Origin: a virus
Virus record (IMG/VR): IMGVR_UViG_3300010391_000161
Span: 1 to 36,622 of that record
Length of the DNA stretch: 36,622 nucleotides
Direction: 5' to 3' (one strand)
Notes under the pieces: generated by a model
Seen by the model: the letters and a program-made list of their open reading frames with translations, nothing else
Told to the model about the DNA's origin: nothing
Databases searched by the model: none
Position numbers and translations under genes: made by a program
In this document: piece by piece, positions 7,638 to 17,492 of the stretch
Layout of the letters: the number at the start of each line of letters is the position of its first letter
How positions within the stretch are numbered: position 1 is the first letter of the stretch

Positions 7638-8663
7638 ATGCGCGGCCCGTGGAAGCTCGCGCAGCTAGACGCGGCGCCGAGGCTTGGGCTTCGCGTCGTG
7701 TCGACGTTCTCCGGGGGCGGCGGTTCGAGCATGGGCTATCGACTCGCCGGCCTCGACGTCATCGCGGCCGTGGAGATCGATCCCGAAATGACCGATCGAT
7801 ACGAGACGAACCTCGGCGCCGGCAAGGCCGTGCGCGCTCCCGTCGGTGACGTCGCGCGCTGGACGGATGTCGAACTCGAGGCGCGCTTTGGCGCCGTCGA
7901 CATCCTCGACGGATCGCCGCCGTGCTCGTCGTTCTCGATGGCCGGCTCGCGCGAGGGCAAGTGGGGCGAGGCGCACAAGTTCCGCGAGGGTCAAGCGACG
8001 CAGCGGCTCGACTCCCTATTCCTCGATTTTGTCGAGCTCGCGCGTCGCCTTCGGCCTCGCGTCGTCGTCGGCGAGAACGTGATGGGAATGCTCATTGGCA
8101 AGGCGCGCGGCTTCGTGCTCGAAGTGCGCGACGCCTTCCTCGCCGCCAGCTACGAGCCACAGCTCTTTCAGCTCGACGCCTCTCGCATGGGCGTGCCGCA
8201 GCGCCGCAAGAGGATCGTGTTCGTGGCGCGGCGCCTGGACCTCGGGATGCCGCCGTTGTCGCTCGCGTTCGACGAGTCGTGGATCTCGGCGCGCGAGGCG
8301 TTCGAGGGCTGCGCGCCTCGCGCGGGCGAGAAGGTCATCTGGCTCACCGAGCGACACATCGGGCCGTGGGGTATGACGCGCCCGGGGCGCGCGCTCTCCG
8401 AGGTCCACTCGAAGGGGCACCTCTGGAATTGGCAGAAGATCGATCCCGACTCGCCGACGCAGACGCTCACGGCGAGCGCCGTGACGCCACTGCACTGGTC
8501 CGAGCCGCGCCACGTCGTCGACGCCGAGTGCGTGCGGATGCAGACATTCCCAGACGACTACGACTTCGGGTCGCTGCCGGCGCGCTACGTGTGCGGGATG
8601 AGCGTGCCGCCGCAGATGATGCGCCGAGTCGCGACCGCGATAGCGTCGTGGATGGGAGCCTGA
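7638..8663 (+). CDS. DNA (cytosine-5) methyltransferase
   Basis: 341 aa, about normal length for a single-domain C5 enzyme. It transfers a methyl group from SAM to cytosine C5. Ordered motifs are clear: I, FSGGGGSSMGYRLAG (24-38); IV, GSPPCSSFS with catalytic Cys96; VI, ENV (146-148); VIII, QRRKR (188-192); IX/X, PTQTLTAS and the C-terminal VPPQMMRRVATAIA. The target-recognition region is short. ATG 7638 is supported by GCGAGG upstream; the longer open frame to the left is shadow sequence. Together with the two adenine or N4 enzymes it suggests heavy modification of phage DNA, probably against host restriction. Confidence 0.9.
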   Translation: MRGPWKLAQLDAAPRLGLRVVSTFSGGGGSSMGYRLAGLDVIAAVEIDPEMTDRYETNLGAGKAVRAPVGDVARWTDVELEARFGAVDILDGSPPCSSFSMAGSREGKWGEAHKFREGQATQRLDSLFLDFVELARRLRPRVVVGENVMGMLIGKARGFVLEVRDAFLAASYEPQLFQLDASRMGVPQRRKRIVFVARRLDLGMPPLSLAFDESWISAREAFEGCAPRAGEKVIWLTERHIGPWGMTRPGRALSEVHSKGHLWNWQKIDPDSPTQTLTASAVTPLHWSEPRHVVDAECVRMQTFPDDYDFGSLPARYVCGMSVPPQMMRRVATAIASWMGA

Positions 8664-8665
8664 CG

Positions 8666-9946
8666 ATGGACGTCGAGACGATCGAGGTCGGCGAGCTGAC
8701 GCAGGACCCGCGCAACGCGCGTCTGCACCCTGACGAGAACCTCGCCGCCATCAAGGCGAGCCTCGCGGAGTTCGGGCAGGTTGAGCCTCTCGTGGTGCAG
8801 CGCTCGAGCGGCCGAGTCATCGGCGGCAATGGCCGGCTGCGCGCCATGCTCGAACTCGGGTGGCGGGAGGCGCGCGTCGTGCGTCTCGACCTCGACGACG
8901 CTCGCGCGACCGCGCTGGGGCTTGCGCTGAACCGCACGGCGGAGCTCGCGACGTGGGACACCTCGACGCTGACTGCGCTGGTGAGGGAGCTTGGGGAGGC
9001 GGGTGCGCCAGTCGCGTCGTTCGGCCTCGGCGAGGACGACCTTCGAGACATTCTCGCGGCCGCCACGGAACCGAGGCGCGACGTTCTGACTGAAGACGAC
9101 GTGCCGGAGCCACCGAGGAAGGCGATCACGAAGCTCGGGGACGTGTGGCAGCTCGGTCGTCACCGGCTCGTGTGCGGGGACTCCACCGATGGCGCGACGG
9201 TCTCAGCGCTCATGGGCGACGCTCGCGCCGGGCTGATGAACACCGATCCGCCGTACGGCGTTGGATATGCGAACGACGACCGCCCGAATCCGGGGGTGGC
9301 GAAGCCGCGGGTGGCGAAGCCGCGGGTGGCGAACGACACGCTGGCGGACGCTGCGTTGCAATCGTTTTTAGAAAGCGCCTTCCGCGCCGCAAAGACGCAC
9401 GCGCTGGGGGCGACCGCGGCCTGGTACCTGTGGCATGCGCACTTGACCCAGGGATTCTTCGCGGCGGCGGCGGCGGCGGCGGCGGCGGATGTCGTGCTGC
9501 ATCGGCAGATCATCTGGGTCAAGCCCGTGCTACTCCTCGGTCGTGGACAGTATCACTGGAAGCATGAGCCGTGCTTCATGGGATGGGTTCGCGGGCAGCA
9601 GCCTCCGGACTACGGGCTTGGGGCGGGAGAGAGGACGCAGACCACGGTGTGGGAGATCGCGTCGGTCACGAGAGAAGACCGCAAGGAGTTTAACCATGCG
9701 ACCCCGAAACCGGTCGGGCTCTTCGCGATCCCGCTCGTCAAGCACCTGCGCAACGGCGAGATTGCCTACGAGCCGTTCGCCGGGAGCGGTCCGCAGTTCA
9801 TCGCCGCCGAGCAGCTCGAGCGAACATGCTATGGAATCGAGATCGATCCGCGCTACGTGGACGTGGTGATCGAGCGGTGGCAGAACCTCACGGGCGGCAA
9901 GGCGACTCGTGCTTCTGGTTCGACGAAGCGCCGCGCGAAAGGATAG
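8666..9946 (+). CDS. ParB-like domain fused to DPPY (N6-adenine/N4-cytosine) methyltransferase
   Basis: 426 aa. Residues 1-130 form a ParB-like domain (ELTQDPRNARLHPDENL, then VIGGNGRLRAML). Residues 155-415 form an amino-methyltransferase with DPPY at 194-197 before the SAM motif FAGSG at 371-375, the beta-class order. Such fusions are common in phages and prophages and methylate adenine N6 or cytosine N4. The start has GGGAG upstream and lies two bases after the previous stop. Two in-frame expansions lie inside the catalytic region: a 15-bp repeat giving VAKPRVAKPR (9296-9333) and nine GCG codons giving a poly-Ala run (9461-9487). These may alter specificity or be neutral. Confidence 0.9.
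   Translation: MDVETIEVGELTQDPRNARLHPDENLAAIKASLAEFGQVEPLVVQRSSGRVIGGNGRLRAMLELGWREARVVRLDLDDARATALGLALNRTAELATWDTSTLTALVRELGEAGAPVASFGLGEDDLRDILAAATEPRRDVLTEDDVPEPPRKAITKLGDVWQLGRHRLVCGDSTDGATVSALMGDARAGLMNTDPPYGVGYANDDRPNPGVAKPRVAKPRVANDTLADAALQSFLESAFRAAKTHALGATAAWYLWHAHLTQGFFAAAAAAAAADVVLHRQIIWVKPVLLLGRGQYHWKHEPCFMGWVRGQQPPDYGLGAGERTQTTVWEIASVTREDRKEFNHATPKPVGLFAIPLVKHLRNGEIAYEPFAGSGPQFIAAEQLERTCYGIEIDPRYVDVVIERWQNLTGGKATRASGSTKRRAKG
9296..9333. repeat. 15-bp in-frame tandem repeat in the methyltransferase
   Basis: GTGGCGAAGCCGCGG occurs at 9296-9310 and 9311-9325, followed by half a copy. It encodes VAKPR repeats shortly after the catalytic DPPY motif. Confidence 0.9.
9461..9487. repeat. 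GCG trinucleotide run (nine codons)
   Basis: Nine successive GCG codons encode a poly-alanine stretch within the methyltransferase domain. The trinucleotide unit preserves frame when the copy number changes. Confidence 0.9.
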
Positions 9947-9955
9947 GCTTCAGGC

Positions 9956-10537
9956 GTGGGCAGGCCGCTCAAAAAACGCAAGGTCGTGACCGCACCATTG
10001 GCGCCCGAGCACCCGTGGGAGCGACAGCCCTCGGAGTCCGACACGGCCTGGGGGGCGTTTGTGACATACCGCGACCTCGGGCCCGACGAGCGCCCTCTCG
10101 CGAAGCTCGTGCAGAAGTACGCCAAGGGCAGGGCCAACTTCACGCGCTGGTCGTCGGCGTGGGACTGGGTCGCGCGCTGTGCGGTCTACGACGCTTGGGT
10201 CGACCGACAAGCGAGGCTCGCGAACATCGCCGCGATTAAGGACATGAAGGCGCGACACAGGCAGATCGCGATGTCCGCCGAGGGGGCCGGCGCCCTCGCG
10301 CTCAACAAGGTTATCGCCGCCGAGCGCAGCGGCACGACGCTGACTCTCAAGCCGTCCGAGATCAAGGACCTCCTCGAATTCGGCACGAAGCTCGAGAGGC
10401 TTACGCTCGGCGAGCCCGGCGAAATCGAGCGCGTCAGCGTCGAGGCCGCGCCCGTTGTTCACGACTACAGCGCCCTTAGCACGGAAGAGCTCTTGCAGCT
10501 CGGCGCGCTGACGCGCAAAGCGCGCGGCGACGCTTGA
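9956..10537 (+). CDS. terS: terminase small subunit
   Basis: 193 aa. It recognises phage DNA for packaging and recruits TerL. The N-terminus is basic (RPLKKRKVV). The central part (YAKGRANFTRWSSAWDWVARCAVYDAW) looks like the helix-turn-helix plus following helix seen in phage TerS-like proteins, and the rest is helical, suited to oligomer formation. The GTG start follows AAGGAT. The gene ends by overlapping the ATG of TerL (TGATG). The call combines weak family similarity with strong position evidence. Confidence 0.7.
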   Translation: MGRPLKKRKVVTAPLAPEHPWERQPSESDTAWGAFVTYRDLGPDERPLAKLVQKYAKGRANFTRWSSAWDWVARCAVYDAWVDRQARLANIAAIKDMKARHRQIAMSAEGAGALALNKVIAAERSGTTLTLKPSEIKDLLEFGTKLERLTLGEPGEIERVSVEAAPVVHDYSALSTEELLQLGALTRKARGDA

Positions 10538-13167
10538 TGAGCGCGCCGACCGCGCGGCGCAAGGGACCGCACCACAAGCAGAAGCTCGATGTGGTCGACT
10601 TGCGCGCCGTCGATCGCGAGATCTGCCTTCGTCAGTTCCGCAGGTTCGTGCCCGATGCCTTCGAGGTCGTGGAGGGCGGAGACGCCCACTTCTCGCTCGT
10701 GCGCGCCGGTAAGCGCTCGCCGAAGTTCATTGGCGGTTGGCACATCGACGCCATCGCCGATCACCTGCAAGCGGTTGCCGAGGATCAGATCAAACGACTC
10801 TTGATCAACGTGCCGCCGGGTACGTCCAAGAGCATTTTGGCTTGCGTGCTGTGGCCAGCATGGTTGTGGGCGCGCGATCCATCGCTCCGCTTCTTGTTCA
10901 GCAGCTACAGCGAAGATTTCACCAAGCGCGATTGCCGCCGCACGAAGGCCCTGATCGAGAGCGATTGGTATCGAAGCTTGTTCCCGGAGGTGAAACTCAA
11001 GCGCGACCCCGATACCGTGATGGAGCATCACACGACCGCCGAGGGCGAGCGGCACGGAGCCTCGACCGGCAGCGGTGTCACCGGCAAGCATGTACATTGT
11101 TTGCCGGCAGGGGTAAGAGTGCGTACGGAGCTCGGCGATTTAGACATCGCCGAGCTCGTGGCGATGCGCGAGCGCCCTCGTGTGTTGTCGATGAACCATC
11201 GAACGGGAAAGCTGGAGTGGCGACGTGTACAGGCCGTCAACGAGAGTCGAACGAACGAGCTTTTCGAGATCCGAACAGGTGGTGGCCGTTCGTTGCGGGC
11301 TACCGGGGAGCATCCCCTCTTCGTTCGTCAGCGGGGATACAGGCAGGCGCGTGATCTTGCCGACGGTGAAGCGCTGCTCGCCGTCGGGGAAGTGCCAGGC
11401 ATGCGGCACCAAGACCGACAGGCAGAGCGTTGTGTGCAAAACCTGTTACGGCAGGGCGAGAAAAGTCGTGCTCGAGATCGCGTGCTTTGCATGCGACAGG
11501 CGATTCGCGAAGCCGTTGTACGAGTACGAGAAGGCGCTGCGGCGAAAGCCCGACTCGCGCTTCTTCTGCTCGCGCGCGTGTTCGACAAGGCCAGGCGCGC
11601 GTGGCTACGTGAACGCCGTTTCGCGCAATTGCTTGATGTGCAGGACACCTGTGCCTTCGCGCCCGCGTCGGAGGTATTGCGGGGAGGCGTGCCGCCTTGC
11701 GGCGAGGGCCTCGCGGAGAAAGATCAAGGCGCGCAAGTGCGCGGCGTGCGCGGCGACGTTTCGGCCGAAGAGTTCTCGTCAGCGTTTTTGCGGGAAGGCG
11801 TGCGCGAACAGGGATCACGCGACGCGAATGATCGGGAGGGGCAACTCGCACTACAGGGACGGGAAGAGCTATGCCCTCTGGTTCGACCTGATGCGCGAGC
11901 CGATTCTCGAGCGCGACAGTGGCTGCGTCGCCTGTGGGACGACGACCGGCAGGATTGTGATCCATCACATCGACGAGGACGTGGCGAACAACACGCCGGA
12001 GAACCTCGTGGCGCTCTGCGCGCGCTGTCACCTCCGACATCACAAATCGAGGTGGACGCCGTTTCCGTGGTTGAGCGATCGCGCTGTAACAGCGTCGCGG
12101 TCTATGACCTCCAGGTGGAGGGAAACCACAACTTCTTTGCGAACGAGATTCTCGTCCACAACTGCATAGTCGAGGACGATCCTCTAAAAGCTCAGGACGC
12201 TCGCAGCCCACGCGCTCGCGAGGAGGTATGGGACTACCGCACGCAGACGCTCGGCTTTCGCCTCTTGCCCGAAGCGGGCTGGCGTATCGTGATCATGCAA
12301 CGCCTGCACGAGGACGATCCGAGCGGCCGCATCCTCGCGCGCGCCGGCAAGGACCGCGAGGAGGATCCCGACGAGTATGTCCACCTGTGCCTGCCGATGG
12401 AGTATGAACCACAGCGGCGCTGCACGACGGCGCTCTTCGCTGACCCGCGCAAGGAAGAGGGCGAGCTGCTTTGGCCACAGCGCATGAACCGCAGGTTTGT
12501 TGACGCGCTCAAAAGCCCGCAGGGTCTCGGAGAGTACGGCTTCGCGGGCCAGGCGCAACAGCGCCCCGCGCCAGCCGAGGGCGGCGTGATCAAGCGCGCT
12601 TGGTGGCGCTACTGGGAGACGATGCCGACCGAGCTCGACAAGGTGATCGTCTCGTGGGATCTGACGTTCAAGCACACCGGCTCGAGCTGGGTCGTCGGGC
12701 AGGTATGGGGCAAGAAGGGGCCGGACGCCTTTCTGCTTGATCAGGTGCGCGACAAGATGGACTTCCCGGCGCAGCTCGCCGCCATCCGGGCGCTCGCTAC
12801 GAAGTGGCCCGAGACGAAGGAGAAGCTGATCGAGGATGCGGCGAACGGCGCGGCCGTGATAAGCGTTCTCAGGAAGGAGATCCCCGGTGTCATACCGATA
12901 CCTCCGAGAGGCTCGAAAGAAGCTCGGCTCGCCGCCGTCGCGGTGTTCGTCGAAGCCGGCAACGTGTATTTGCCGCACCCGAGGATTGCTCCCTGGATCG
13001 ACGGGCTGGTAGAGGAGGTCACGATGTTCCCGAACGGCTCGAACGACGATCAGGCCGACTGTGCATCACAGGCGCTTTCGCGGCTGTTCGCGTCGGGCCC
13101 GAAGAAGCTCACGCAAGCCTTTAACCTCGCGGGCGCCGGCGAGAGGCCGAGCCCGTGGAATCAGTGA
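10537..13167 (+). CDS. terL: terminase large subunit with intein
   Basis: 876 aa before splicing, 521 after. It is the ATP-driven DNA packaging motor and nuclease. The ATPase Walker A is PPGTSKS (93-99). Walker B is IVEDD (544-548), immediately after the intein, which spans residues 188-542, so splicing is needed to join the ATPase. The C-terminal RNase-H-like nuclease has the expected acidic residues: Asp708 in SWDLTF, Asp767 in IEDAANG and the NDDQAD group (837-841). ATG 10537 overlaps the TerS stop; a TTG one codon upstream is less likely. The intein's middle third is translated in a frame that is not the coding frame of the DNA (see the nested HNH gene), giving an Arg-rich filler. Confidence 0.92.
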   Translation: MSAPTARRKGPHHKQKLDVVDLRAVDREICLRQFRRFVPDAFEVVEGGDAHFSLVRAGKRSPKFIGGWHIDAIADHLQAVAEDQIKRLLINVPPGTSKSILACVLWPAWLWARDPSLRFLFSSYSEDFTKRDCRRTKALIESDWYRSLFPEVKLKRDPDTVMEHHTTAEGERHGASTGSGVTGKHVHCLPAGVRVRTELGDLDIAELVAMRERPRVLSMNHRTGKLEWRRVQAVNESRTNELFEIRTGGGRSLRATGEHPLFVRQRGYRQARDLADGEALLAVGEVPGMRHQDRQAERCVQNLLRQGEKSRARDRVLCMRQAIREAVVRVREGAAAKARLALLLLARVFDKARRAWLRERRFAQLLDVQDTCAFAPASEVLRGGVPPCGEGLAEKDQGAQVRGVRGDVSAEEFSSAFLREGVREQGSRDANDREGQLALQGREELCPLVRPDARADSRARQWLRRLWDDDRQDCDPSHRRGRGEQHAGEPRGALRALSPPTSQIEVDAVSVVERSRCNSVAVYDLQVEGNHNFFANEILVHNCIVEDDPLKAQDARSPRAREEVWDYRTQTLGFRLLPEAGWRIVIMQRLHEDDPSGRILARAGKDREEDPDEYVHLCLPMEYEPQRRCTTALFADPRKEEGELLWPQRMNRRFVDALKSPQGLGEYGFAGQAQQRPAPAEGGVIKRAWWRYWETMPTELDKVIVSWDLTFKHTGSSWVVGQVWGKKGPDAFLLDQVRDKMDFPAQLAAIRALATKWPETKEKLIEDAANGAAVISVLRKEIPGVIPIPPRGSKEARLAAVAVFVEAGNVYLPHPRIAPWIDGLVEEVTMFPNGSNDDQADCASQALSRLFASGPKKLTQAFNLAGAGERPSPWNQ
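11098..12162 (+). mobile_element. TerL intein (355 aa in the TerL frame)
   Basis: A Cys1-type intein between GKHVH and CIVEDD of TerL. The N-terminal splicing block starts CLPAGVRVRTELGDLDIAEL; block B is RSLRATGEHPLFV; the C-terminal block is VYDLQVEGNHNFFANEILV ending His-Asn, followed by Cys+1. These are the standard nucleophiles for class 1 splicing. From about 11390 to 12050 the TerL frame has no stop but shows shadow composition: in a 58-codon sample near 11880-12050 only about 45% of codons end in G/C, against about 84% in the +1 frame, where an HNH endonuclease is encoded. Confidence 0.92.
11366..12169 (+). CDS. HNH homing endonuclease nested in the TerL intein, +1 frame
   Basis: Up to 267 aa from a GTG at 11366; an earlier GTG at 11225 would add shadow sequence. 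Residues 4-27 hold CxxC pairs (KCQACG, VCKTCY), followed by at least four more Cys-pair units of the type FCSRAC, CLMC, YCGEAC, CAAC and FCGKAC. Next comes GNSHYRDGKSYALW and a canonical HNH core: CVACG, His200-His201, Asn213, then CARCH with His222, and His225-His226. Codon third positions support this frame. No clear Shine-Dalgarno sequence was seen. The frame runs on to a TAG seven bases past the intein end, so its last 35 residues are antiphase to the splicing block. It is either a nested gene or a shifted intein nuclease domain. Confidence 0.8.
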   Translation: MKRCSPSGKCQACGTKTDRQSVVCKTCYGRARKVVLEIACFACDRRFAKPLYEYEKALRRKPDSRFFCSRACSTRPGARGYVNAVSRNCLMCRTPVPSRPRRRYCGEACRLAARASRRKIKARKCAACAATFRPKSSRQRFCGKACANRDHATRMIGRGNSHYRDGKSYALWFDLMREPILERDSGCVACGTTTGRIVIHHIDEDVANNTPENLVALCARCHLRHHKSRWTPFPWLSDRAVTASRSMTSRWRETTTSLRTRFSSTTA

Positions 13168-13358
13168 GACGATCCCCGATCGATGAGCTGCTCGATCAGC
13201 TTCGCGGCAAGCCTGTGATGCCGCGCGAGTGCTGGTTCGCGCTGTCGCCGCGTCAAGCTGAGAAGGTCGAGCGCAGAGCAGAGGCGCGGAGCATCACGCT
13301 GCTCGAGGCGTTCCGCGAGTTGCTGGCAGAAGACCTCTGCGTTGCTGGGAGGGCCTGA
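13155..13358 (+). CDS. small hypothetical protein between TerL and portal
   Basis: About 67 aa, mostly helical. It overlaps the TerL end. A GTG at 13155 (AGAGG upstream) or at 13164 (GTGA overlap with the TerL stop) could start it. The content (SPIDELLDQLRGKP, then LSPRQAEKVERRAEARSI) resembles small ribbon-helix-helix-like or adaptor proteins but is not assignable. The portal ATG follows three bases after its stop, so it is probably co-translated with the packaging genes. Confidence 0.55.
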   Translation: MESVRRSPIDELLDQLRGKPVMPRECWFALSPRQAEKVERRAEARSITLLEAFRELLAEDLCVAGRA

Positions 13359-13361
13359 CGC

Positions 13362-15785
13362 ATGGCCAAGGCCGCGTTCACCAAGTCGTTGCAGCTAGAC
13401 CTCGGGGTCCAGGGCTCGACGGGCCTCAAGCAGTACGGCGGTTGGATCTTCGAGGAGTTTCTGCCGCGGCTCCAGGGGCGCACGGGCGTCCTGACCTACC
13501 GCGAGATGATCGACAACAGCTCGACCATCGGCGCGATCCGCTACACGATCCGCAGCCTCATTCTCCAAGCCGAGTGGCGCGTCGAGCCGGCTGGCGACAC
13601 GCCGGAAGCGCGCGAATGGGCTGAGTTCGTTGAGGGCTGCCTCGACGACATGAGCCATACCTTCGAGGATTTTCTGAGCGAGCTCCTCTCGCACCTCGAC
13701 TATGGCTGGGCCTATCACGAGCTCGTCTACAAGATCCGTCGTGGGCCCGAGGCGACGAACCCCAGCTACCGCTCGAAGCACGACGACGGGAAGGTCGGCT
13801 GGCGCAAGATCCCCATTCGCTCGCAGGACACGCTCGACCGCTGGGAGTTCGAGCCCAGCGACAACGGCGTTCGCGGCATGTGGCAGTTCGATCCCTACTC
13901 GCCGAAGGGCAGCCAGCTCTTCATCCCCATTGAGAAGGCGTTGCTCTTCCGCACCTCGGGGAACAAGGGCAATCCAGAGGGCCGCGCTTTGACGCTGGAT
14001 ACGTCGGTGCCGACGCCCGATGGCTGGACCACGATGGGCGCGATCGAGGTGGGCGATAAGGTCTATGACGAGCGTGGACGGATTCGGTACGTCACCGCGA
14101 AGACAGAAGTGTTCCGCGATAGGCCCGTTTACGAGATCGAGTTCAAGGATGGTTCCGCGGTGCGAGCGGACACGAACCACCTATGGAGCGTGACGGACTA
14201 CAACGATCGAACCCTCGGCCGCGAGCCGCGAACGATCAGCACCGAAGAGTTGTTCGCCAAGAGCCAGAAGTCGACTGACCTGATCTTCTCGTGCGGCCGG
14301 GCGCCGGTGTTGGATGCTCCGAATCAGCCGCTGCCCGTCGATCCCTACCTGCTGGGTTATTGGCTCGGCGATGGCGCGATCGGGACGGCGACGTTCTCCG
14401 TATGCGACGAAGATCTGCCAAGTCTGCTGGAGCAGATCAGCGCGGCGGGCCACGAGCCTGGCGCGAGGAACGGCAACAACATCAGTGTGCCAGGTGTGTT
14501 CCGCGAGGCGCTGAAAGTCGCGGGCGTCTACCGCAACAAGCACATCCCGGCGACTTATCTGCGGGCGTCGTCTGAGCAAAGGCTCGCGCTGTTGCAAGGG
14601 CTGATGGATTCGGACGGGTTCACGCCGGCGAAGGATGCCAAGGATGTCGCAAGCGTGTTCCACAACACGGATCTGAATTTGATCCACGGGGTCGCCGAAC
14701 TCGTGCGGACGCTCGGGGGACGGCCGAAGGTCAAACTCCGCCAGCGGGCTGGCCGGCTCGGCGGCGAGCTATTCGGAAGACAGATCGTCGGCAGGCGCGA
14801 CCTGTGGGAGGTCCGGTTTTCGCTTGATCTCCCGACCCATCGACTCCCGCGGAAGCGCGAGCGGCAGAAGCTCGTCTCCGAATGCGATCGGGAGGTCGCG
14901 CTCAGCCATCACGTCATTCGCAACATTCGCCGGGTCGAGAACGCGGACACGGTATGCATCGAGGTCGACGCACCTTCACACCTGTTCCTCGCGGGCGATA
15001 GCATGGTGCCGACGCACAACTCTATCTACCGCAACGCCGTGCTCGATTATTTCAAGTTCAAGCGGATCACCGACATCGAGGCGGTCGGCATCGAGCGCGA
15101 CATGACGGGCTTGCTCCACATGCAGGTGCCGATCGAGATCCTCCAGGCGGCGCCGGGCTCGATCGAGATGACCATACGCAGCGAGCTCGAGCGTATGCTC
15201 GGCTCGCTCAAGCGCGACGAGCGCGAGTTCGCCATGACGCCGCCCGAGCTCAACGAGGAGGGCATGCCGACGGGCTTCAAGCTCGGGCTGCTCGCCACCG
15301 GCGGCCGGCGCCAGATCGATACCAACGACATCGCGCTGCGCTACATGAACAGCATGACCATGTCGACGCTTGCCGACTTCCTCATGCTCGGCAAGAACGA
15401 TGTCGGAAGCTGGGCGCTGGCGTCCAGCAAGACGCGCCTCTTTTCGTTTGCGCTTGGCGCCATCATGGACGCCGTTGCGGCCGTGTTCAATCGCTTCGCC
15501 ATCCCGCGACTGATGGCGCTTAACAGCGTGCCGGTCGACCTTCACCCGCACCTCGTGCACGGCGACATCGAGTCACCGCCGCTCGACGAGATCGGCAACT
15601 ACATCACCTCGCTCGCCACCGCTGGGCTGCTCACGCCGACCAAGCCGCTCGAGCGCAAGCTGCTCGAGTTCGGCAGGCTGCCGGCGCCGCCCGTCGACGA
15701 AGAGGACAAGCCACTGCCAGGCGAAGGCGCTCGGATCGCGCCCGAGCAACTGCTGCTCCCGCTCGCGCAGCCTGGGGTCGGGTAG
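13362..15785 (+). CDS. portal protein (Mu gp29/DUF935-like) with intein
   Basis: 807 aa before splicing, 462 after. It forms the dodecameric ring through which DNA enters the head. The N-terminal extein (LTYREMIDNSSTIGAIRY, LDYGWAYHELVY, RSQDTLDRWEFE) and the C-terminal extein (ITDIEAVGIERDMTGLLHM, LADFLMLGKN) fit the DUF935/Mu gp29 portal family. The intein covers residues 209-553, between NPEGR and SIYRNA, a conserved portal segment. Start ATG 13362 follows GGGAGG. The gene lies between TerL and the MuF-like protein, as is usual. Confidence 0.9.
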   Translation: MAKAAFTKSLQLDLGVQGSTGLKQYGGWIFEEFLPRLQGRTGVLTYREMIDNSSTIGAIRYTIRSLILQAEWRVEPAGDTPEAREWAEFVEGCLDDMSHTFEDFLSELLSHLDYGWAYHELVYKIRRGPEATNPSYRSKHDDGKVGWRKIPIRSQDTLDRWEFEPSDNGVRGMWQFDPYSPKGSQLFIPIEKALLFRTSGNKGNPEGRALTLDTSVPTPDGWTTMGAIEVGDKVYDERGRIRYVTAKTEVFRDRPVYEIEFKDGSAVRADTNHLWSVTDYNDRTLGREPRTISTEELFAKSQKSTDLIFSCGRAPVLDAPNQPLPVDPYLLGYWLGDGAIGTATFSVCDEDLPSLLEQISAAGHEPGARNGNNISVPGVFREALKVAGVYRNKHIPATYLRASSEQRLALLQGLMDSDGFTPAKDAKDVASVFHNTDLNLIHGVAELVRTLGGRPKVKLRQRAGRLGGELFGRQIVGRRDLWEVRFSLDLPTHRLPRKRERQKLVSECDREVALSHHVIRNIRRVENADTVCIEVDAPSHLFLAGDSMVPTHNSIYRNAVLDYFKFKRITDIEAVGIERDMTGLLHMQVPIEILQAAPGSIEMTIRSELERMLGSLKRDEREFAMTPPELNEEGMPTGFKLGLLATGGRRQIDTNDIALRYMNSMTMSTLADFLMLGKNDVGSWALASSKTRLFSFALGAIMDAVAAVFNRFAIPRLMALNSVPVDLHPHLVHGDIESPPLDEIGNYITSLATAGLLTPTKPLERKLLEFGRLPAPPVDEEDKPLPGEGARIAPEQLLLPLAQPGVG
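13986..15020 (+). mobile_element. portal intein, class 3 with in-frame LAGLIDADG endonuclease
   Basis: 345 aa starting at an alanine (ALTLDTSVPTPDGW) and ending VPTHN before Ser+1. The lack of a residue-1 nucleophile plus Trp275 after the block-B His273, Cys532 in VCIEVD and Thr551 in PTHN gives the Trp-Cys-Thr set that defines class 3 inteins. Two LAGLIDADG helices are in frame: LLGYWLGDG (330-338) and LLQGLMDSDGF (410-420), so this is a complete, conventional homing intein. Third codon positions are noticeably less GC-rich than in the portal itself, consistent with separate origin. Confidence 0.92.
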
Positions 15786-17492
15786 ATGCCTCTCGTGCTC
15801 GTCAGCAAGGCGAAGCGCGCCCCAGCTCCTCACGCGCTGGCCGCCGAGTATGAACCGGCGACGCGCAACGTGCGCCAGTTCGCCCGCGCCGCAGCCTCGG
15901 CGTTGCGCGCTGCTTCGGCGCAAGCAGGCTCGGACGAGCTTCTTCGTCTGGTCGCAGCGCAGGCTCCGATCGACCAGATCCTCGCTGCGATGAAGCTCGA
16001 TTCAGGCTCCGAGCTGCTTGTGCCGGCGTACGAGCGCGTGCTTCAGACCACCATCGAGATCGAGAAGAAGCGCAAGCGCAGCGTGCCGACCGTGCGGGTC
16101 AACCCGCGCTCGATCGAGTGGGCGCGCGAGCGCGGAGCCAAGCTCGTGCAAGGCGTCAGCGCCCAGACGCGCACCGCGATCCGCAACGTCGTGGCTCGCC
16201 AAGTGGCGCGGGGCGAGCGAGCCGAGTCCATGGTGCGCGGCATCATGCGGGTCGTCGGTCTCTTGCCGCGCGACGAGGCTGCGGTGGCGACCCGGCGCAT
16301 TCTTCTGCTCGAGCGCGGCGAGGACATCGAGCGCGCCGAGCGCCTGTCCGACAAGTACGCCGACGAGCTGCTCGAGGCTCGCGCGATGCGCATCGCGCGC
16401 ACCGAGACCGTCGCGGCCCAGAACCGCGGGCTGCTCGACACCTGGCAGGACGCCTTCGAGTCCGGGGCGCTGCCCGATACGGTCGTGCGCGTGTGGGTAT
16501 CGGCACCTCCGAGCGAGAACCCGGGGCGCCCGTGCCCCATCTGTCTCGAGCTTGATGGCACCGAGGCGCCAATGGGCCAGTCCTTCGAGTCGGCACTGCT
16601 CGACGAAAGCGTCCTGACCCCACCGGCGCATCCAAACTGCTTACCTGGGGATGCGGCAGTAGCAGCCGAGAGCATCGCGGCCGCGAGCGTACGGCGATAT
16701 GATGGAGATCTCGTCGTTATCCGCACGGCCGCAGGTCACCGTCTCGCCTGCACCCCGAACCATCCGATACTCGGGACTGGCGGCTGGCTTCCTGCGCGCT
16801 CGTTCCACATAGGAGACCACGTAGTCGGCGCTCGCCTCGGTGAGCGGATGCCTTCGCTCATCGACCCAGATCATGAGCACCGACCAGCCGCGATCGAGCA
16901 GGTAGCGCGTGCGCTCGAGGAGTCGCGCGTGGCGACGGCCCTGCCAGTGCCAATTTCCTCCGAGGACTTCCATGGCGACGGGAAAGGCTCCGAGGTCGCA
17001 GTTGTATGGGCCGATGGCTTGTTGAGGCAAGACCTCGAGTCCGCGATCAGCCAACATGCGAGCCAGCTTGATCTCGCTTCGAGAAGCGCCGAGCAGCCTC
17101 GACTGCCGCGTGATCGCCGCCTGCTCGAGCACTCGGCGCGAGACGCGCATCCCGCGCCGAGCTTCATGGGCACTCTTTGTGAGCGCCACGCGCTGCTCTG
17201 GACTCAGGCGCAGCATGCGAAGGCGATTCGCCTCGCTCAGACCGCGTGGCTTGACGCCGGCGGCAAGAAGTCGAGTGCGCACCCCGCCCCGAGCGATGTG
17301 GAAGGATTCGCTCAGCGACTTCTCCGACGCACCAGCCAGATACAGGCGCACAAGATCATCGACGTCCACGTCCAATCGTTTAGCAACCACGTGTTCAACC
17401 TCGAGACGGCGGTCGGCGCCTACATAGCACAGGGCCTCGTGACCCACAACTGCCGCTGCACGATGACGCTGCGAAGAGAGAGCGCGTCATGA
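15786..17492 (+). CDS. MuF/SPP1 gp7-like head morphogenesis protein with intein
   Basis: 568 aa before splicing, 297 after. It is a minor head protein that binds the portal and helps assembly and DNA ejection. The extein has the family's signature: ARAMRIARTETVAAQN helix, then CPICLELDG and, at the end, the HPNCRC motif. The intein (residues 285-555) splits this motif exactly between Asn and Cys (HPN / CRC), so splicing restores the metal-binding-type signature. Start ATG directly follows the portal TAG. A Vsr-like endonuclease ORF lies on the opposite strand within the intein. In a 37-codon extein sample about 92% of third positions are G/C, against about 62-72% in the intein. Confidence 0.9.
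   Translation: MPLVLVSKAKRAPAPHALAAEYEPATRNVRQFARAAASALRAASAQAGSDELLRLVAAQAPIDQILAAMKLDSGSELLVPAYERVLQTTIEIEKKRKRSVPTVRVNPRSIEWARERGAKLVQGVSAQTRTAIRNVVARQVARGERAESMVRGIMRVVGLLPRDEAAVATRRILLLERGEDIERAERLSDKYADELLEARAMRIARTETVAAQNRGLLDTWQDAFESGALPDTVVRVWVSAPPSENPGRPCPICLELDGTEAPMGQSFESALLDESVLTPPAHPNCLPGDAAVAAESIAAASVRRYDGDLVVIRTAAGHRLACTPNHPILGTGGWLPARSFHIGDHVVGARLGERMPSLIDPDHEHRPAAIEQVARALEESRVATALPVPISSEDFHGDGKGSEVAVVWADGLLRQDLESAISQHASQLDLASRSAEQPRLPRDRRLLEHSARDAHPAPSFMGTLCERHALLWTQAQHAKAIRLAQTAWLDAGGKKSSAHPAPSDVEGFAQRLLRRTSQIQAHKIIDVHVQSFSNHVFNLETAVGAYIAQGLVTHNCRCTMTLRRESAS
16638..17450 (+). mobile_element. MuF intein/Hint element (271 aa)
   Basis: A Cys1 intein: the first residues are CLPGDAAVAAESIAAASV, block B is HRLACTPNHPIL (Thr-Pro-Asn-His), and the C-terminal block is VFNLETAVGAYIAQGLVTHN before Cys+1. 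No LAGLIDADG or HNH is in the sense frame. The middle (ISSEDFHGDGKGSEVAVVW) is protein-like and stop-free but not a nuclease I recognise. The opposite strand carries a homing-endonuclease-like ORF over the same bases with codons exactly facing codons. Sense and antisense third positions over 160 codons (16860-17339) are about 72% and 74% G/C, so composition does not decide which strand is under stronger selection. Confidence 0.88.
16641..17390 (-). CDS. Vsr-like (EDxHD) homing endonuclease, antisense inside the MuF intein
   Basis: 249 aa from a GTG with GAGGT eight bases upstream; the open frame reaches back to a GTG at 17447. N-terminal residues 9-50 (DVDDLVRLYLAGASEKSL onward) look like a helix-turn-helix, followed by a basic linker (SEANRLRMLRLSPEQRVAL). 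Residues 100-175 resemble the Vsr-fold nuclease family: Glu106 in SRSEIKLARML, Asp132 in IGPYNCDLG, Glu141 in PVAMEVLGGNWHW and His148. Its TAA lies on the second codon of the intein, so the gene is wholly inside the element. Antisense ORFs arise easily here by chance, so the case rests on the ordered motifs and not on length. Confidence 0.72.
   Translation of the reverse strand: MVAKRLDVDVDDLVRLYLAGASEKSLSESFHIARGGVRTRLLAAGVKPRGLSEANRLRMLRLSPEQRVALTKSAHEARRGMRVSRRVLEQAAITRQSRLLGASRSEIKLARMLADRGLEVLPQQAIGPYNCDLGAFPVAMEVLGGNWHWQGRRHARLLERTRYLLDRGWSVLMIWVDERRHPLTEASADYVVSYVERARRKPAASPEYRMVRGAGETVTCGRADNDEISIISPYARGRDALGCYCRIPR

Follow-up and report, generated by a model that had tools for sequence, protein, structure and literature searches.

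The terminase gene and its intein

The window, by which we mean the whole stretch of DNA analyzed (36622 bases of an IMG/VR-type virus record, 65% G+C), carries a gene for the large terminase subunit, TerL, on its forward (+) strand, where all features of this locus lie. The TerL open reading frame (ORF) occupies 10534-13167, has an ATG at 10537, and runs for 877 amino acids uninterrupted by stops. It matched the Pfam families Intein_splicing (E=1e-17) and Terminase_6C (E=7e-14) as well as PHROG_38 (terminase), and the terminase family matches flank an intein on both sides. This intein spans 11098-12162, with all of its splicing residues in the TerL frame. By alignment with intein-free TerLs, the N-extein (10537-11097) ends in VTGKHVH and the C-extein (12163-13164) begins with Cys+1 directly upstream of Walker B (CIVEDDP). 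Because intein-free TerLs align across the junction, the insertion can be placed precisely between two residues of an otherwise unbroken host protein; the TerLs of Aeromonas phage vB_AsaM-56 and Gordonia phage Portcullis aligned continuously over it.

Class 1 inteins have Cys or Ser at position 1, TxxH in block B, a block F, and HN in block G followed by Cys, Ser, or Thr. The corresponding residues in the window are C1, TGEH, VYDLQVEGNHNFF, and HN/C. The N-terminal splicing block (11098-11370), comprising Cys1, block A, and block B, starts with CLPAGVRV, its Cys at 11098, and reads TGEHPLF at block B; Cys1, T69, and H72 were invariant in 13 inteins. The C-terminal splicing block (12058-12162) contains block F VYDLQVEGNHNFFAN and block G ILVHN. 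Across 44 inteins, C1, T69, H72, D337, and N345 were invariant. AF2 built a Hint fold from the two intein ends (residues 1-100 and 317-355) at a pLDDT of ∼98, and the best Foldseek matches of these ends were intein splicing domains, including that of Mtu RecA (TMt 0.88). By its residues, modeled fold, and insertion site, the insert is a canonical class 1 intein (Cys1, HN/Cys+1) and is predicted to splice.

Between the two blocks lies a linker (11371-12057) that reads in the TerL frame as an Arg-rich filler of ∼229 codons without a stop, modeled by AF2 at a pLDDT of ∼50, and in the +1 frame as zinc-cysteine units and an HNH core. When the TerL-frame filler was used as a query, two collection searches returned no phage homologue; the result serves as a control, indicating that the filler is not a recognizable protein. 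We also considered a group I or group II intron at this position and rejected it, as there was no Rfam match in 10400-13300 up to E=0.1.

Two neighboring genes also harbor inteins. The portal gene (13362-15785) has one with a LAGLIDADG domain and residues that follow the class 3 pattern, namely Ala first, W in block B (HLWSV), C in block F (VCIEV), and T before HN (PTHN/S). The Mu F-like head protein gene (15786-17492) has another at ∼16641-17459 (C/LPGDAAV ... VTHN/C; Intein_splicing E=5.7e-7), so that three consecutive head and packaging genes each carry a different type of intein. A 123-amino acid +1 ORF within this third intein (17056-17427) was tried as a second nested gene and rejected, being Arg/Ser-rich with no PHROG match. 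Elsewhere in the window, a DNA methylase ORF (7922-9946) has an N-terminal ParB-like domain, an alanine run, and a short VAKPR repeat.

The HNH frame inside the intein

The original prediction placed both splicing blocks in the TerL frame and an HNH nuclease with its zinc-cysteine units at +1, and our searches bore this out. The +1 ORF at 11225-12169 is a predicted HNH endonuclease coding sequence of 314 amino acids with a GTG start, and it matched PF01844 (E=6e-5, above the Pfam cut-off) and PHROG_1271, HNH endonuclease (E=3.7e-20). The catalytic core, residues 234-274 of this ORF, is encoded at 11924-12046. In 45 HNH homologues, the HH, N, and H residues of the core were invariant, and these together with the cysteine pairs were invariant or nearly so. 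A profile search hit structurally characterized HNH proteins; a fold search gave no match below E=0.001, and its matches to HNH enzymes were weak.

Base composition in the core region also distinguishes the two frames. At 11880-12050, the third codon position was G or C in 47 of 56 HNH-frame codons (84%) versus 24 of 56 TerL-frame codons (43%), close to the ∼84% and ∼45% first claimed. When synonymous codons of the HNH frame were shuffled with the protein held fixed, 6-7 stops were expected in the TerL frame of the window; 0 were observed (P ∼0.0005), in agreement with the earlier statement that the TerL frame stays open across the nuclease.

The extent of the nuclease had been put at ∼11366-12060. 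The nuclease is indeed there but is not confined to that interval, and its frame probably opens with the GTG at 11225, which falls within the N-terminal splicing block, and runs to 12169, slightly beyond the intein. A Shine-Dalgarno-like (SD) GGAG (11214-11217) lies within the splicing-block coding sequence 7 nt upstream of the predicted start, with a duplex dG of -6.0, and such signals were enriched in the family described below. The stretch from 11225 to 11370 would thus be dual coding, with the TerL frame specifying intein block B and the +1 frame the HNH N-terminus.

Recurrence, selection, and probable mobility in phage TerL inteins

We searched IMG/VR contigs for related elements using the HNH alignment as query and, independently, using the C-terminal splicing block and C-extein alone. 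The searches yielded 106 complete elements in 72 clusters, most of them on metagenomic contigs, with G+C contents from ∼0.35 to 0.71. The HNH frame was at +1 in 62 of the 72 clusters (57 of these full length), and the remaining 10 were mini-inteins without HNH. Comparison of TerL inteins among relatives had been set beforehand as the test that could refute a nested gene, and an HNH homologue in the host frame was found at the site in 0 of 72 clusters. In-frame HNH inteins were detected in other genes, a ribonucleotide reductase (L061) and an RNA ligase (L132), indicating that our method is able to see in-frame cases. The host gene was TerL in all sampled loci, and the site was always the one immediately upstream of Walker B. 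An AT-rich contig (L002), found with the HNH protein query, had the same layout as the window, and so did the complete genomes of two isolates, Gordonia phage Clown and Synechococcus phage S-EIVl, in which the HNH frame is at +1 and TerL, open throughout, is annotated as one gene labeled only “terminase”. Recurrence of the double coding in dozens of distantly related phages indicates that the arrangement is genuine and under selection and that it did not arise from a sequencing error.

We then compared the number of TerL-frame stops with that expected from synonymous shuffling. In 57 full-length elements with 12761 HNH codons, ∼538 stops were expected and 0 were observed, a zero that arises partly by construction because the set required both splicing blocks in one ORF, while combined P values come out too small because related elements are not independent and phylogeny was ignored. 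The third frame of the same elements contained 591 stops versus 533 expected. In two locus sets assembled without the one-ORF filter, the TerL frame was open, as in the window, at every locus with HNH and both splicing blocks except L240. At L240 (2162-4475), one apparent indel exchanges the host and HNH frames and breaks both genes; it may reflect natural decay or may be a sequencing error.

The avoidance of stops was visible at the level of single codons. Out of 3335 HNH codons preceding AA/AG/GA codons in the 57 elements, 0 ended in T, versus 2317 of 9369 elsewhere; a TerL stop requires exactly such a pair. The equivalent frame of 114 HNH relatives without a detectable intein contained 956 stops in 9818 codons. 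Between close pairs of elements, dN/dS in the linker was 0.06-0.31 in the HNH frame versus 0.84-2.4 in the TerL frame, a pattern that was reversed in the exteins, and linker substitutions were concentrated at HNH third positions, which are TerL first positions. These values indicate that the HNH protein is conserved and that the TerL-frame linker is merely kept open. As judged from the alignments, the HNH frame is under purifying selection and the filler is selected against stop codons only, and the AF2 models, confident at the splicing ends and poor in the filler, agree. The suggested nested gene, whose overprinted frame would serve as the intein linker, is supported, and the overlap reaches into the N-terminal splicing block as well.

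To locate the beginning of the HNH frame, we counted +1 stops along the N block. In 15 elements, 32 stops were observed in nt 0-126 versus 31.6 expected, and beyond this point 0 were observed versus 18.3 expected. A map of 57 elements likewise showed that +1 stops fall away near column 70, and at the adjoining column 24 of the 57 had a start codon in the +1 frame, 17 of these ATG. Strong SD-plus-start combinations in the +1 frame of this region occurred in 17 of 57 elements, versus 6.3 +/- 2.4 in host-synonymous simulations; when only ATG was counted, there were 10 versus 1.9 +/- 1.4. Neither mini-inteins nor the other shifted frame showed such an excess. From ∼nt 90 of the N block, substitutions fell at a mixture of first and third positions, as predicted for dual coding. 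The start codon was not universal, with some elements having only TTG or a weak SD, and in three (L171, L181, and L233) +1 stops persisted later into the N block and a start codon followed soon afterwards.

The intein was patchily distributed among close relatives. Of the 79 informative relatives in one TerL group, the site was empty in 72 and held the intein in 7, all 7 with HNH at +1. One empty site (L248) has a C-extein 87% identical to that of an element-bearing locus (L180), and another (L261) differs from L258 by an insert of ∼1.1 kb exactly at the intein site. Both of these empty sites retain an intein-type junction, GANC/LIVDDPFK, not the usual GAHL/AIVDDP, and may be either permissive targets or precise losses. 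Decay was also evident. The HNH frame was interrupted by a stop in L039 and by deletions in L057 and L060, with the TerL frame open in all three, and further stages included shrunken remnants and mini-inteins. At the same site, L178 (1-2253) and L179 present a third solution, a fractured TerL intein; in L178 the N-half ORF ends in a stop and is followed by a GIY-YIG-like ORF (395-1192) and by an ORF beginning just before the C-half and C-extein. This range of filled, empty, decayed, and fractured sites, as read from the sequences, is consistent with a homing cycle.

We also compared identities among elements. HNH and TerL identities were correlated (overall r=0.89); outliers, for example L002/L207 (HNH 49%, TerL 24%), are no more than suggestive of horizontal transfer. 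A search for close relatives of one element (L241) returned only three identical copies.

Interpretation and comparison with known systems

Together these data make it very probable that an HNH homing-type endonuclease gene, independently translated, is overprinted at +1 on a splicing class 1 TerL intein. A single mRNA would be read in two ways. Ribosomes in the TerL frame would produce N-extein, splicing block, filler, splicing block, and C-extein, and the Hint domain, given its conserved residues and fold, would excise itself together with the filler in cis. Other ribosomes would initiate within the N-terminal splicing block, in the window at GTG 11225, and make a separate zinc-ribbon HNH nuclease. 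To judge from its family membership and patchy distribution, this nuclease would cut intein-free terL alleles, into which the whole element would be copied.

An indel in the HNH sequence would also shift the essential TerL frame, so ordinary frameshift decay of the nuclease should be lethal. Decay would then be tolerated only through nonsense mutations or deletions of whole codons, of the sort seen in L039, L057, and L060. We consider it likely, if less so than the nested gene itself, that these elements form a widespread and ancient phage intein family in which the endonuclease is an independent gene overprinted at +1 with its ribosome binding site in the N-terminal splicing block, and in which the lethality of indels would shield the selfish gene. 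Overlapping phage genes tend to be small. In at least 62 lineages of the TerL family, the same ∼800 bases serve both a nuclease of ∼300 residues and a spliceable essential protein, with measurable selection on both frames. If correct, the arrangement shows how a selfish gene may escape frameshift decay and represents a second type of endonuclease hidden from gene callers. A further prediction is that, in other mini-intein-like genes, any insert without an assigned function is worth reading in all frames.

Two explanations would make the overlap an artifact, and we regard the chance of either as minute. According to one, assembly or sequencing indels displaced an ordinary in-frame HNH intein in the window contig. 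Two indels of opposite sign would mimic the picture in a single sequence, and L240 illustrates a frame swap by a single indel. However, they would have to recur with an identical frame relation in 62 clusters, including the complete genomes of Clown and S-EIVl, and they cannot produce avoidance of TerL-frame stops at the codon level, which refutes this explanation for the family. Two compensating shifts had been offered initially as the alternative to an HNH gene lodged out of frame, and the same evidence, with an open TerL frame over the +1 gene in those 62 clusters, supports the nested gene. According to the other, the TerL frame is open merely through high G+C and the overlap is meaningless. 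The window is G+C-rich, other frames in it are open too, including a 303-amino acid reverse-strand ORF, and the shuffle test alone was not significant for three G+C-rich elements (L015, L180, and L208). Nevertheless, elements of 38-45% G+C were equally open, and the deficit of stops over the 57 elements was absent from the third frame, where counts were as expected.

Another question is how the HNH frame is translated. Programmed ribosomal frameshifting (+1 or -2) near the N block, which would give a fusion of TerL-N, splicing block, and HNH with no start of its own, would also be expected to make +1 stops disappear near one place in the N block, as they do, and a strong SD is absent from some elements. 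For this last reason frameshifting stays a live but weaker rival. The enrichment of SD-plus-start signals exactly in the +1 frame and region argues against it, as does the differing point at which +1 opens between elements (L171, L181, and L233), and we noticed no common slippery motif on unsystematic inspection; we consider frameshifting unlikely. Function is a separate matter, since the nested HNH could act not in homing but in packaging, as a helper of the terminase, much as do the HNH proteins that many phages encode next to TerL. HNH proteins are known in phage packaging machines (Kala et al. 2014, cited in PMC10448857), and every nested HNH that we found was associated with TerL. Even so, close relatives commonly have a mini-intein, a decayed HNH, or no intein, indicating that the HNH is dispensable for packaging, and its presence is patchy, as for a mobile element. 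A helper role thus seems quite improbable, and we favor an independently translated homing-type endonuclease.

In existing descriptions, an intein and its endonuclease form one polypeptide, of which the endonuclease is a domain. The TerL elements resemble canonical endonuclease-bearing inteins, whether LAGLIDADG or in-frame HNH as in the L061 and L132 genes, in having a Hint domain and in carrying the endonuclease where inteins normally do, between blocks B and F. The difference is that in canonical inteins the nuclease belongs to the intein polypeptide in one frame, whereas in the TerL family it is a separate predicted product in another. Group I introns, which also remove themselves, may carry homing endonuclease ORFs that are not in register with the host gene. 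The TerL elements share this feature, but there is no Rfam match in the TerL region and, since the host frame is open, removal would happen at the protein level, unlike that of a group I intron. Fractured genes with split inteins, which Dassa and colleagues are said to have described in 2009 (cited in PMC3229294), reportedly carry an independently translated endonuclease between the halves, with the host frame broken and splicing in trans. An endonuclease gene translated on its own between intein halves is the common element, and L178/L179, with the GIY-YIG-like ORF, resemble fractured genes; in the +1 family, by contrast, the host frame is unbroken, which would still allow cis splicing.

The closest parallel is ShiLan, in which an HNH lies out of frame in phage methylases with the host frame open, no intein, and no ribosome binding site seen (Arsenault, Gosselin, and Gogarten, Genes 2025; PMC11855218). 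In both systems a zinc-finger HNH sits out of frame in a host gene without a stop across the insert, distribution is patchy, and translation is unexplained. ShiLan has no splicing domain and its insert is thought to remain in the methylase, whereas the TerL insert, which has an Intein_splicing match, interrupts an essential packaging gene as a complete intein and is predicted to be removable. The TerL family is also far wider, and its start region overlaps a splicing block and is enriched in ribosome binding sites. Our literature search turned up no description of an intein that contains an endonuclease out of frame, apart from whatever is contained in a 2025 preprint known by its title (Gosselin, Arsenault, and Gogarten, “Actinobacteriophage Inteins: ... 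Non-Canonical Architecture”, bioRxiv 10.1101/2025.01.02.630785). That title suggests unusual architectures, and the preprint may already describe part of the TerL arrangement; its phage collection includes Clown, so priority may rest with it. In STALEMATE, an engineered entanglement, a second-frame gene is given an internal ribosome binding site (PMC12455656), and the TerL/HNH overlap would be a natural counterpart of such engineered sequence entanglement.
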